The notes below the pieces were generated by a model. It searched no databases. It had not been told where the DNA came from and saw only the letters and a list, made by a program, of their open reading frames with translations. Shown here one piece after another: positions 796-7,259 of a stretch of 40,600 nucleotides of DNA. The DNA comes from an uncultured Eubacteriales bacterium (GTDB lineage: Bacteria > Bacillota > Clostridia > Peptostreptococcales > Anaerovoracaceae): contig CADAEH010000018.1 of NCBI GenBank assembly GCA_902786855.1, positions 1 to 40,600 of the forward strand. Reading direction: 5' to 3'. A program made the translations under genes and the position numbers. How positions within the stretch are numbered: position 1 is the first letter of the stretch; each line of letters begins with the position of its first letter.

Positions 796-871
796 TGGTG
801 CGCCCGGCGAGGATCGAACTCGCGGCCTTCTCATTCGGAGTGAGACACTCTATCCACTGAGCTACGAGCGC
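796..871 (-). tRNA. tRNA-Arg (anticodon CCG)
   Basis: Read on the minus strand, the cloverleaf is complete: acceptor GCGCTCG with CGGGCGC (one T-G wobble), D-arm with AGCTCAGTGG, anticodon stem TCTCA/TGAGA with loop CTCCGAA, so the anticodon is CCG (reads CGG), and T-arm GCGAG-TTCGATC-CTCGC. The 3' ACCA is encoded. It lies about 120 bases downstream of gpsA on the same strand and has its own terminator at 751-791. Confidence 0.95.
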
Positions 872-4369: not shown

Positions 4370-4398
4370 TTGACTTATTGTATAAAACGGTTTATATT
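4370..4398 (+). promoter_or_regulatory. Predicted promoter of the methionine transport operon
   Basis: -35 TTGACT (4370-4375), exactly 17 bases, -10 TATATT (4393-4398). Transcription should start near 4405, giving a leader of about 220 bases before metN that holds the leader peptide gene and terminator. Two AACCGGG direct repeats lie at 4406-4412 and 4417-4423. Confidence 0.7.
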
Positions 4399-4453
4399 AT
4401 CTATCAACCGGGAAATAACCGGGCATCTTATTCTATGAAAGGAGTACATTCAC

Positions 4454-4525
4454 ATGACCACAAGAAGCATGATGATGGATATGAGAATGATGGGCATGTG
4501 CATGTGCGGTGCCGATATAGCATAG
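4454..4525 (+). CDS. Methionine-rich leader peptide of the metNIQ operon
   Basis: A 23-codon reading frame with a strong ribosome binding site (AAAGGAG, 4438-4444, nine bases before the ATG). Nine of 23 residues are Met (positions 1, 6, 7, 8, 10, 12, 13, 15, 17), with Cys at 16 and 18; the stretch MMMDMRMMGMCMC spans codons 6-18. It lies in the leader of a methionine transporter operon, upstream of an intrinsic terminator. I infer a classical attenuation peptide: ribosomes short of charged tRNA-Met stall in the Met run and allow an alternative RNA fold that prevents termination. The two Cys codons might also sense cysteine. The peptide itself probably has no function. A T-box or SAM riboswitch is not seen here. 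Confidence 0.85.
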   Translation: MTTRSMMMDMRMMGMCMCGADIA

Positions 4526-4542
4526 GATAAGGTCATAACGCA

Positions 4543-4580
4543 GCCGATACTATGAGTTTTCTCATGTAATATACCATCGG
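4543..4580 (+). promoter_or_regulatory. Candidate antiterminator fold in the metN leader
   Basis: CCGAT (4544-4548) can pair with ATCGG (4576-4580), enclosing a small hairpin ATGAG-TTTT-CTCAT (4552-4565). ATCGG is part of the 5' arm of the terminator at 4575-4612, so the two folds exclude each other. A second copy of GCCGATA (4511-4517) overlaps the last codons of the leader peptide and could compete, which would make the choice depend on ribosome position. Confidence 0.5.
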
Positions 4581-4612
4581 GCAGGTCGTTAGGACCGGCC
4601 CGATGTTTTTTT
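4575..4612 (+). terminator. Attenuator terminator upstream of metN
   Basis: Outer stem CATCGGGC (4575-4582) with GCCCGATG (4598-4605), one A/G mismatch, inner stem GGTC/GACC, loop GTTAG, then seven T (4606-4612). It lies between the leader peptide and metN, whose ribosome binding site starts right after the T-run. Confidence 0.85.
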
Positions 4613-4626
4613 CAGAAAGGAACAGT

Positions 4627-5697
4627 ATGGCAGAACACATAATCAGTCTGCAGGGGGTCACCAAGGAGTTCGATACCAAGAACGGAAAAGTCGTGGCTCT
4701 CAAAGACATCAATCTGGATATCGAAAAGGGAGATTCTTACGGGATCATCGGTCTCTCGGGTGCGGGCAAGTCGACACTGGTAAGGACGATCAACCTGCTC
4801 GAGCAGCCGACCGAGGGAAAGGTCCTCTTCGATGGAGAGGCATTGACAGGACTCAGAAGCAAAGATCTTAACCTCGCCAGGCGCAAGATCTCGATGATCT
4901 TCCAGCAGTTCAATCTGCTGATGCAGAGGGATGCTGTCGGAAATATCTGCTTCCCGCTTGAGATAGCCGGTGTGCCGAGAGCAGAGGCGAGAGCCAAAGC
5001 CGAGGAACTCCTCAAGGTAGTCGACCTTGAAGAAAGAGCGCACTCCTATCCGTCTCAGCTTTCCGGAGGACAAAAGCAGAGAGTCGCTATCGCAAGAGCT
5101 CTGGCGTCAGACCCGGAAGTCATCCTCTGTGATGAGGCTACATCAGCTCTTGACCCTAAGACGACGAGATCTATCCTGAGCCTGCTGAGGCAGATCAACG
5201 AAGAGAGGGGCATCACACTGGTAGTGATCACCCACGAGATGGAGGTCATAAAGCAGCTTTGCAAAAAGGTGGCAGTCATCGAGAACGGCGAGATCGTAGA
5301 GAGAGGTCTGGTCAAAGATATCTTCGCAAGACCTAAGACAAAAGCCGCAAGAAAGCTTTTCTTCCCTGAAGGTGATGAAAAGGAAAAGACCAAAGGCAGA
5401 ACGGCGACGATGAACCGCCTGAGGCTTGCTTTCAACGAGCAGACAGCATACAAGCCGATCATCTCCTCGATGATCCTGGAGACCGGAGCGCCGGTCAATA
5501 TCCTTTACGCCAACATGGACGCACTCCTCGAGGAGCAGAAGGGCCAGATGGTCATATGTCTCTCCGATGACAAGGATACAGCCGAGAAACAGAAAGCTTA
5601 CCTCATAAAAGAGGGTGTCGACTTTACAGAGATACCGGAGGAATCGGAATACTATGAATATCCGCTTCACGGTTTTGAGGAGGAGGTGACAGAGTAA
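4627..5697 (+). CDS. metN: Methionine ABC transporter, ATP-binding protein
   Basis: The ATPase of the D-/L-methionine importer, on the inner face of the membrane with MetI. 356 residues: Walker A GLSGAGKST, Q-loop MIFQQFNLL, signature LSGGQKQRVAIARAL, Walker B VILCDEATSALD, H-loop VVITHEM. After the nucleotide-binding domain comes a C-terminal ~90-residue NIL domain (about 270-345), which in MetN binds methionine and inhibits transport when the inside pool is high. The start is the ATG at 4627 with AAAGGA upstream; an earlier in-frame ATG at 4603 lies inside the terminator and is rejected. Expression is probably set by the upstream attenuator. metI starts at the last base of the stop codon. 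Confidence 0.96.
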   Translation: MAEHIISLQGVTKEFDTKNGKVVALKDINLDIEKGDSYGIIGLSGAGKSTLVRTINLLEQPTEGKVLFDGEALTGLRSKDLNLARRKISMIFQQFNLLMQRDAVGNICFPLEIAGVPRAEARAKAEELLKVVDLEERAHSYPSQLSGGQKQRVAIARALASDPEVILCDEATSALDPKTTRSILSLLRQINEERGITLVVITHEMEVIKQLCKKVAVIENGEIVERGLVKDIFARPKTKAARKLFFPEGDEKEKTKGRTATMNRLRLAFNEQTAYKPIISSMILETGAPVNILYANMDALLEEQKGQMVICLSDDKDTAEKQKAYLIKEGVDFTEIPEESEYYEYPLHGFEEEVTE

Positions 5698-6359
5698 TGG
5701 ATACAGGTACATTGGTAAGCCTGCTCTGGGAAGGACTTCTCCAGACACTGTACATGACACTCATCGGAACTCTGATCTCATACCTGATAGGACTTCCGAT
5801 CGGAGTATCGCTGGTGGTCACAGGACCTAACGGGATCAGACCGATTGGCATCTATAACAAAGTGATGGGATTCATCGTAAACGTGATCCGTTCGGTACCT
5901 TTCCTCATCCTGATGATCGCGCTGATGCCATACATCCGTAAGATCATCGGCACCGGGATAGGAACAAGCGCTACGACGGCCGCACTCATCGTGGCAGCAG
6001 CACCTTTCGTAGCCAGGCTGGTAGAACAGTCGATCCTCGAAGTAGACGCAGGTGTCATTGAAGCAGCTCAGGCGATGGGAGCGAGCAACTTCCAGATAAT
6101 CAAGAAAGTGCTTTTGCTCGAAGCAAGACCATCACTCCTGAACGGAGCCGCGGTAGCGACGATCAACATCCTAGGGTATTCAGCGATGGCCGGCATAGTC
6201 GGAGGCGGAGGGCTCGGAGACATAGCCATCCGGTACGGACTTTACAGATTCCAGCCTGCGATCATGTGGATCACGATAGTAGTACTGGTCGTACTTGTCC
6301 AGATACTGCAGGAGGTCGGCATCAGAGTTGCCTCCAGGATGGACAACCGTCTCAACTAA
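5697..6359 (+). CDS. metI: Methionine ABC transporter, permease
   Basis: The 220-residue membrane channel of the methionine importer, with about five hydrophobic segments. The N-terminal signature TLYMTLIGTLISYLIGLPIG and the EAA-like coupling motif IEAAQAMGASNFQIIKKVLL, which docks on MetN, are both typical, as is SAMAGIVGGGGLGDIAIRYG. The length matches the family. It overlaps metN by one base (TAATG), so the two are translationally coupled. Confidence 0.96.
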   Translation: MDTGTLVSLLWEGLLQTLYMTLIGTLISYLIGLPIGVSLVVTGPNGIRPIGIYNKVMGFIVNVIRSVPFLILMIALMPYIRKIIGTGIGTSATTAALIVAAAPFVARLVEQSILEVDAGVIEAAQAMGASNFQIIKKVLLLEARPSLLNGAAVATINILGYSAMAGIVGGGGLGDIAIRYGLYRFQPAIMWITIVVLVVLVQILQEVGIRVASRMDNRLN

Positions 6360-6431: not shown

Positions 6432-7259
6432 ATGAAGAACATCAGAAAGTTAAGCGTACTCGCGATCGTACTCGCACTCATTTTCGCATTCACAGCATGC
6501 GGAGCCACCTCCAATGACGAAGAAGGTGAAGCCAAGATCATCAGAGTAGCAGCATCCCCTACACCACATGCAGAGATCCTGAATTCGATCGCTGACAATC
6601 TTGAAGAGGAAGGATGGACACTCGAGGTCGTAGAATTCGATGACTATGTACAGCCTAACGTAGCTACAACAGAAGGCGATGTAGATGCCAACTATTTCCA
6701 GCACGTTCCATATCTCGAACAGTACAATGACGAGAACGGCACAGAGCTCGTAGCAGTAGGAAACGTTCACTACGAAGCAATGGGCGCTTACAAGGGAACC
6801 AAAGCTTCCTTCGATGAGCTCGCAGACGGCGACAAAATCGCAGTTCCTAACGACGTGACCAACGAAGCCAGAGCACTCCAGCTCCTCGCAGCGAACGGAG
6901 TTCTCACACTCAAGGACGGAGTCGGTCTCGAAGCAACCAAGACAGATATCGTAGACAACCCTAAGAACATTGAGATCGTAGAGCTCGAAGCAGCTACTAT
7001 CCCTGCATCACTTCCGGACGTTGCAGTTGGAGTTATCAATGCTAACTACGCACTCGGAGCAGGCCTCACAACAGACGATGCAATAGCATACGAGTCTGAG
7101 GATTCAGAAGCAGCTGAGACCTATGTAAATGTCATCGTAGTCAACGCAGGCAACGAAGATTCTGAGAAGACCAAGGCTCTCGTAGCAGCAATCCAGACAG
7201 ACGAGGTCAAGGAATTCATCGCTGAGCAGTTCAAGGGCGCAGTACAGGCTAAGTTCTAG
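6432..7259 (+). CDS. metQ: Methionine-binding lipoprotein (NlpA/MetQ family)
   Basis: The membrane-anchored substrate-binding protein of the importer, 275 residues. A lipoprotein signal peptide ends at FTAC-G, so Cys23 should be lipidated. The mature part begins with the family's IIRVAASPTPHAEILNSI, followed by VVEFDDYVQPNVA, DANYFQHVPYL, KIAVPNDVTNEARALQLL and the ligand-pocket stretch AVGVINANYAL. An upstream in-frame ATG at 6405 is rejected because AAAGGAG lies just before 6432. It is the last gene of the operon, 72 bases after metI and followed by a strong terminator. Confidence 0.96.
   Translation: MKNIRKLSVLAIVLALIFAFTACGATSNDEEGEAKIIRVAASPTPHAEILNSIADNLEEEGWTLEVVEFDDYVQPNVATTEGDVDANYFQHVPYLEQYNDENGTELVAVGNVHYEAMGAYKGTKASFDELADGDKIAVPNDVTNEARALQLLAANGVLTLKDGVGLEATKTDIVDNPKNIEIVELEAATIPASLPDVAVGVINANYALGAGLTTDDAIAYESEDSEAAETYVNVIVVNAGNEDSEKTKALVAAIQTDEVKEFIAEQFKGAVQAKF

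Follow-up and report, generated by a model that had tools for sequence, protein, structure and literature searches.

A methionine-rich leader upstream of metNIQ in Clostridia, probably a ribosome-mediated transcription attenuator that counts Met codons

The window analyzed here, a stretch of 40,600 nucleotides from the contig of an uncultured Eubacteriales bacterium, carries on its forward strand three adjacent genes: metN for an ABC ATPase (4627..5697), metI for a permease (5697..6359) and metQ for a substrate-binding lipoprotein (6432..7259). The top NCBIfam models for their products are ABC_MetN (343.8 bits; curated cut-off 499.7), MetI (194.7 bits; cut-off 212) and MetQ (202.7 bits; cut-off 374, with MetQ/NlpA as a second top model at 187.7 bits against 228.85), all of them below the curated cut-offs. 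Together with the gene order, these matches support the identification of metNIQ as a methionine importer. We took 4627 as the start of metN; an alternative longer ORF from 4603 would begin within the terminator described below. The source genome is 87% complete (2.9 Mb, 62 contigs). By record title, the nearest relatives of its MetN come mostly from Mogibacterium sp., Candidatus Crickella and uncultured Clostridiales or Clostridia, and several records bear gut sample names. The sole Rfam match at gathering score in the window is a tRNA gene (799-871, minus strand), and the region discussed here resembles another contig (L002), by eye in promoter-like sequence ahead of a dapA-like gene.

All elements of the region upstream of metN lie on the plus strand. 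A sigma-70 type promoter, TTGACT-17-TATATT (4370..4398), agrees with the consensus at 10 of 12 positions; a promoter scan returned two promoter-like sites against 1.0 on average in shuffles, and a promoter-like sequence can be read by eye, uncounted, at the matching place in most aligned relatives. It is followed by the Shine-Dalgarno sequence AAAGGAG (4438..4444), recognized in both the sequence and the alignment, and by the leader ORF MTTRSMMMDMRMMGMCMCGADIA (4454..4525, stop TAG at 4523-4525), of whose 23 codons nine, counting the start, are Met. The 101 bases between the leader stop and metN hold an intrinsic terminator (4575..4612; −22.1 kcal/mol), consisting of a hairpin at 4575-4605 and a U tract, whose upper stem is also marked by a simple terminator scan (one found versus 0.2 in shuffles). 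The promoter, the strong binding site, the 23-codon frame with nine Met and the stem-T-run terminator had all been claimed in an earlier sequence-only reading, and each was borne out. The operon is thus preceded by a short ORF with a Shine-Dalgarno sequence, which is predicted to be translated, by codons for the amino acid that the operon concerns and by an intrinsic terminator.

From 80 related loci collected to examine conservation, the 44 nearest (L003-L046), with best-segment identities of 75-91% to MetN, were inspected by eye and by script. In 43 of them the core MMGM(C/R)M(C/R) can be made out, in L019 as a decayed copy only; L041 shows no Met core but has just 80 bases of upstream sequence. 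Every part, as judged by pattern, is present in 37 of the 45 loci formed by the window and its 44 relatives, and these 37 loci (36 distinct sequences) were aligned. Three of the eight loci left out have a contig end too close (L019, L022 and L041). Of the rest, L024 and L032 are without the antiterminator arm, L033 has lost the leader start and Shine-Dalgarno sequence with the frame retained, L036 is without the terminator and L016 without the 5' arm of helix P1 (see below). These five are metagenome-assembled genomes by title, so that the missing parts could be either assembly errors or real losses. In L036 the 3' half of the terminator is gone and the leader continues directly into metN; the operon there would be constitutive, unless this is an assembly error. 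A decayed second Met-rich leader ORF lies between the terminator and metN in L019 and L030, apparently the remnant of a tandem duplication.

In all 37 aligned loci a whole number of codons separates the leader start from the Met core (30, 33 and 39 bases in 22, 13 and 2 loci, respectively); as there are only three length classes, few independent events stand behind this conservation of frame. The distance from the core to the 3' arm of P1 varies from 12 to 16 bases and is out of frame in 6 of the 37. Within the close clade the residues MMGMCMC are nearly constant and the synonymous sites of the Met core hardly vary; several loci have another residue in place of the first Met of the MMM run. 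The sequence-only reading had named as evidence against itself relatives with the terminator but no Met-rich frame, and none was seen among the close relatives wherever the upstream sequence sufficed. The divergent loci L239 and L240 likewise keep a Met-rich frame before a MetN-like ABC ATPase, with P1-like helices of different sequence predicted in single-sequence folds.

Beyond what the sequence-only reading had observed, the leader is spanned by a hairpin, P1/P2, within a whole-leader fold of −68.5 kcal/mol (z −4.05). P1 is formed by a 5' arm that lies early in the predicted transcript (CTTATTCTATG, 4427..4437) and a 3' arm that overlaps the stop codon (CATAGGATAAG, 4521..4531). P2 joins 4444-4449 with 4502-4507 and 4451-4456 with 4495-4500, so that the start region, including the start codon, pairs with the Met-Cys-Met-Cys codons within Gly14-Met-Cys-Met-Cys18, with 100% of cells paired. 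Codons 6-13, which read MMMxMxMM, are Met-rich outside P2. Across the 37 aligned loci all 826 of the 826 P1 and P2 cells are standard pairs, and double changes occur at three pairs in five cells; not one of the five measures is attained in any of 500 shuffles, and versions of P1/P2 slid along the alignment are at most 58% paired with at most two doubly changed pairs. Since most pairs are invariant, the covariation depends on few changes, which by reading of the alignment are those in L003 (P1), L035 (outer P2) and L029, L042 and L045 (one inner P2 pair).

The four loci with double changes in P2 have Arg in place of Cys, with the adjacent Met codons unchanged. In L240 one Cys codon has become Tyr, and there, too, the predicted fold pairs the start region with the core codons; in L239 only GCAC ahead of the start codon is predicted to pair with Met-Cys codons, the start codon itself pairing elsewhere in the Met run. 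As the compensatory changes in P2 turn Cys into Arg, RNA pairing, rather than cysteine sensing, would explain the Cys codons in this clade, and the additional cysteine response suggested by the sequence-only reading is not needed here.

The terminator faces a conserved competitor. Its 5' arm, GGTC-AT-AACG (4531..4540), adjoins the 3' arm of P1, with which it has a single base (4531) in common, and its 3' arm, CGTT-AG-GACC (4587..4596), occupies the terminator loop and 3' arm, making the two structures mutually exclusive. All eight pairs of this antiterminator are present in 37 of 37 loci when these are read locus by locus without alignment gaps. In the alignment 95.8% of its cells are paired with one double change (G-C to A-U in L045), a count equalled in 74 of 500 shuffles; the evidence for it is therefore one of conservation rather than covariation. 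A re-paired antiterminator (AGG.AUCUAAC with GUUAGA.ACCU) is predicted in a truncated transcript of L239, and none was seen in the predicted fold of L240 at equal truncated length. The antiterminator at 4531-4540 and 4587-4596 replaces the pairing of CCGAT (4544-4548) with ATCGG (4576-4580), for which the sequence-only reading had proposed an alignment of metN upstream regions: that alignment bears out the Met core and adds the covarying P1/P2, but the CCGAT/ATCGG helix, present in the window, is complete in only 1 of the 37 loci (46.5% of cells paired versus 49.5% in shuffles) and is hence not a conserved feature. In the window, folding suggests that it may be an extra nested helix inside the larger antiterminator. 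The window segment TAGCATAGGATAAGG has stops in all three frames, so that translation would end beside the antiterminator in any frame.

We then folded the leader with ribosomes placed on it. For transcripts that stop just within the terminator and a ribosome on a Met codon, the median probability of the antiterminator is 0.96, and the probability exceeds 0.5 at 232 of 287 positions (0.5 to 1.0 for the window itself). Once the ribosome is placed at the stop codon, the probability in the window is at most 0.01 at every mask from stop+11. Across loci the outcome depends on the mask: the antiterminator arm begins 13 bases past the stop codon in 26 of the 37 loci, and masking to stop+12 therefore brings the probability below 0.1 in just six loci (the window included), followed by 7 at +14, 23 at +15, 32 at +16 and 37 at +20. 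The arm would thus lie at the leading edge of the ribosome in most loci, where simple masking is unproven. The terminating ribosome would cover much of the 3' arm of P1 under every mask. With no ribosome, the antiterminator is still likely (median 0.87). Whichever of the three ribosome states is imposed, the full-length RNA of the window folds into the terminator, and the switch must therefore act kinetically. In window transcripts, P1 and the antiterminator are present in one fold when the 3' end is at 4595 and, with P1 shifted, at 4598. Because the two helices share just one base and co-fold, a role for P1 as an anti-antiterminator in the manner of trp, which we considered, is weakened.

The best explanation of the locus, which we hold with good confidence, is a ribosome-mediated transcription attenuator that counts Met codons and controls metNIQ. 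When Met-tRNA is plentiful, the ribosome would pass the Met codons and reach the stop codon at 4523-4525, where it would cover the P1 3' arm and extend up to, or onto, the antiterminator arm; the terminator at 4575-4612 would then halt transcription. When Met-tRNA is short, the ribosome would stall within codons 6-17, the Met run, far short of the antiterminator arm, leaving 4531-4540 free to pair with 4587-4596, such that the terminator could not close and metNIQ would be transcribed. If the leader is not translated, P1/P2 would close over the start region and probably restrict translation to the pioneer ribosome. P1 might also support the antiterminator by stacking. As P1 abuts the antiterminator and hardly overlaps it, the default state of an untranslated leader may be ON, not OFF. 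The sequence elements, their conservation, their pairing and its covariation are what was seen; the stalling, the response to methionine, the direction of the switch and the roles of P1 and P2 are inferred from them. Of the attenuation reading proposed from the sequence alone, the leader peptide, terminator and antiterminator before a methionine importer stand, whereas the particular antiterminator and, in this clade, the cysteine response are not supported; the underlying observation is real and its core interpretation likely right.

A more elaborate joint reading is tentative, and on balance we doubt it: methionine would be sensed twice, through fMet-tRNA at initiation and Met-tRNA at elongation, with the start locked by the leader's own Met-Cys codons; the pioneer ribosome alone would vote; P1 would stack on the antiterminator, leaving the untranslated leader ON; only a ribosome finishing the Met run would turn metNIQ off; and Met-counting leaders would have evolved several times within the class, on different RNA designs.

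A covariance model of P1, P2 and the ORF matches in 6 of 197 genomes of the family, five of them of the source genus (the window's genome included) and one, weakly (31 bits), of another genus, which indicates a narrow distribution of the P1/P2 RNA design. Leaders rich in Met occur more widely: among the 36 loci L047-L082, ones of other sequence precede metN in seven (L047, L048, L049, L051, L052, L074 and L078), each followed by a terminator; L051 is from Herbinix hemicellulosilytica. For a census of the class we took 100 loci, one per genome, from the 166 of 391 genomes with a MetI match; they were picked by score order and so are not a random sample (G154 was skipped for its short contig). 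Ninety-eight were usable, L160 having no ABC ATPase frame that we could find and L137 too little upstream sequence; metN was taken to be the frame before metI that carries a Walker A motif. We counted as a leader any upstream ORF with a ribosome-binding site, 10-60 codons, at least four internal Met and at least 12% Met, a threshold chosen after the close clade had been seen. By this measure, 11 of the 98 loci have a Met/Cys-rich leader of other sequence ahead of metN, as compared to 0 of 98 reverse strands and 1 of 980 resamplings of metN upstream regions; these resamplings, like those of the complementarity analysis below, are first-order Markov and not exact dinucleotide shuffles. The leaders fall in families f11, f22, f31, f47, f55, f58 (only the doubtful L136) and f79. 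A lenient search without control finds a terminator after 10 of the 11 and after both near misses (L197 and L200, with three internal Met and uncounted); the exception, L136, is probably a false match. Of the five other own-family genomes with metI, the three that were inspected (L140, L143 and L217) are without such a leader.

Some of these leaders point to other RNA designs. The ORF end complements the 5' arm of the terminator beyond 200 of 200 resamplings in L139, L148 and L092 (metY), and L138 shows the same design at 22 of 200. The corresponding values are 8 for L200, 10 for the window, 14 for L074, 15 for L191 and 19 for L045, and range from 34 to 141 of 200 in the other 13 loci with a terminator; for most outlying leaders the complementarity is no better than chance. 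As the designs in other families share, by eye, Met codons and not sequence, they furnish the best reason for taking the codons as the sensor, and codon-counting Met leaders are apparently recurrent in several families of the class.

In Bacillota, the RNA control of methionine genes is known chiefly in the form of SAM riboswitches and Met T-boxes. Neither a SAM riboswitch (RF00162) nor a T-box (RF00230) was matched upstream of metN in the window or in the 20 of the 44 close loci that were scanned, nor was either matched in the seven distant Met-rich loci, the 11 census loci or the two near misses. SAM riboswitches do lie directly before metN in other MetN relatives (L054, L057 and L066). The Rfam run covered 40 of the 100 census loci: six SAM riboswitches turned up among scanned loci chosen partly for frames beginning MKPGN or MKPSN, and a second batch gave no SAM riboswitch and one T-box (L155). 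T-box leaders in L072 (3402-3645) and L075 (3405-3647) are on the far side of the metN stretch and not before metN. The one SAM riboswitch of the source genome (C8:17342-17451, minus strand; L083) precedes a metK-like gene, and two T-box matches below the family cut-off precede thrS-like and trpB-like genes, all named by eye. The source genome thus seems to employ two kinds of methionine-related RNA control.

Among other explanations, the one that deserves most weight, though we think it unlikely, is a combined methionine-and-cysteine leader, in which a ribosome held up at a codon of either amino acid would switch on uptake. At least one Cys is found in all 11 census leaders and at least three in eight of them (the half-weight given to Cys in the ranking introduces a slight bias), each of the seven distant leaders has at least one, and Streptomyces lividans metL has both residues (PMC8079986). 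Against this, the Cys codons of the clade lie in P2 and become Arg together with their pairing partners (L029, L035, L042 and L045), and the Tyr of L240 stands beside unchanged Met codons. That the Met/Cys peptide stalls in the exit tunnel in response to methionine, SAM or another ligand is improbable: the near constancy of MMGMCMC in the close clade would suit such an arrest peptide but is partly explained by P2, the leaders found elsewhere are alike in Met content and different in sequence, and the distance from core to stop is variable.

We regard it as more improbable still that the leader is purely an RNA element, structured and binding a protein or ligand, with the ORF as a by-product of paired AUGs. 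The strong conservation of P1/P2 and the scarcely varying synonymous sites of the core speak for it; yet codons 6-13 are Met-rich outside P2, the Shine-Dalgarno sequence and frame are kept, and Met-rich ORFs of other sequence accompany other RNA designs. A Met/Cys peptide that binds and senses a metal such as copper is hardly credible, as nothing beyond the composition favors it, the downstream genes are a methionine importer or metY-like and the Cys codons track RNA pairing.

Classical attenuators, such as those of trp and his, combine a leader peptide in which the regulated amino acid abounds, an antiterminator and a terminator that compete, and a stop codon near the antiterminator, all of which the window leader shares. 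It differs in that its start region is paired to its own regulatory codons, in that the helix closing the ORF abuts the antiterminator without strongly excluding it, and, compared with trp as generally described, in that the antiterminator is likely even without a ribosome. To judge from the title of Canestrari 2020, the polycysteine leaders of mycobacteria resemble it as leaders with codons for a sulfur amino acid and differ in the amino acid, cysteine, and in being leaderless. The nearest precedent is metL of S. lividans TK24, compared here by description rather than by sequence: according to PMC8079986, a short Met- and Cys-containing leader ORF (...GARCMCRRMCAF) directly before metNIQ is termed an attenuator by the authors, is leaderless, has two internal Met and by their account has no typical Rho-independent terminator. 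The sequence-only reading had held Met-codon attenuation to be rarely or not described; the S. lividans case qualifies this, and among the matches listed from the open-licence PMC literature no Met-codon attenuator was found in Clostridia.

His leader peptides before hisZ/hisS in Firmicutes, as portrayed by Naville and Gautheret 2010 (PMC2965389), offer another likeness, as codon-counting peptides that replace a T-box, and differ in serving histidine and hisS-family genes. PMC8632094 describes a Cys-codon attenuator, uORFC-8-2, before cysS and the odc1 motif with its ribosome-binding site held in a helix. These resemble the window leader in codon attenuation and helix-held initiation, respectively, and differ in belonging to Alphaproteobacteria and to other genes; the words methionine and metN are absent from that text. 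RNA attenuation of Bacillota methionine genes is represented in PMC3771891 by the SAM (S-box) riboswitch and the Met T-box, from which the window leader differs in that its sensor would be the translating ribosome and not an aptamer or a tRNA-binding RNA. An actinobacterial survey (PMC1262725) records no conserved RNA structure ahead of methionine operons. A codon-counting Met leader would be a third RNA solution at Bacillota methionine genes, making the sensors directly comparable. Methionine is special because its starvation also hits initiation, and in this leader the start codon itself is predicted to pair with the regulatory codons.

Motif searches gave several further observations. The source genome has 10 matches of ATGNNNATGATGNNNATG, this leader among them; of eight such loci examined, five lie in open frames of 77-931 codons, and the three in short frames (L241, L243 and L244) are not leader-like by eye. 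The pattern M-x-M-C-M-C matches in 18 of the 391 class genomes, versus 6 for the reversed pattern. These matches include L089/L090 (before metN in L090) and L092/L093 (before metY); the others were inspected for an open frame and the next ORF only. In L092 and L093 (genomes G039 and G248) a Met/Cys-rich leader ORF with a terminator and uORF-terminator complementarity precedes an O-acetylhomoserine sulfhydrylase-like gene (metY, named by eye).
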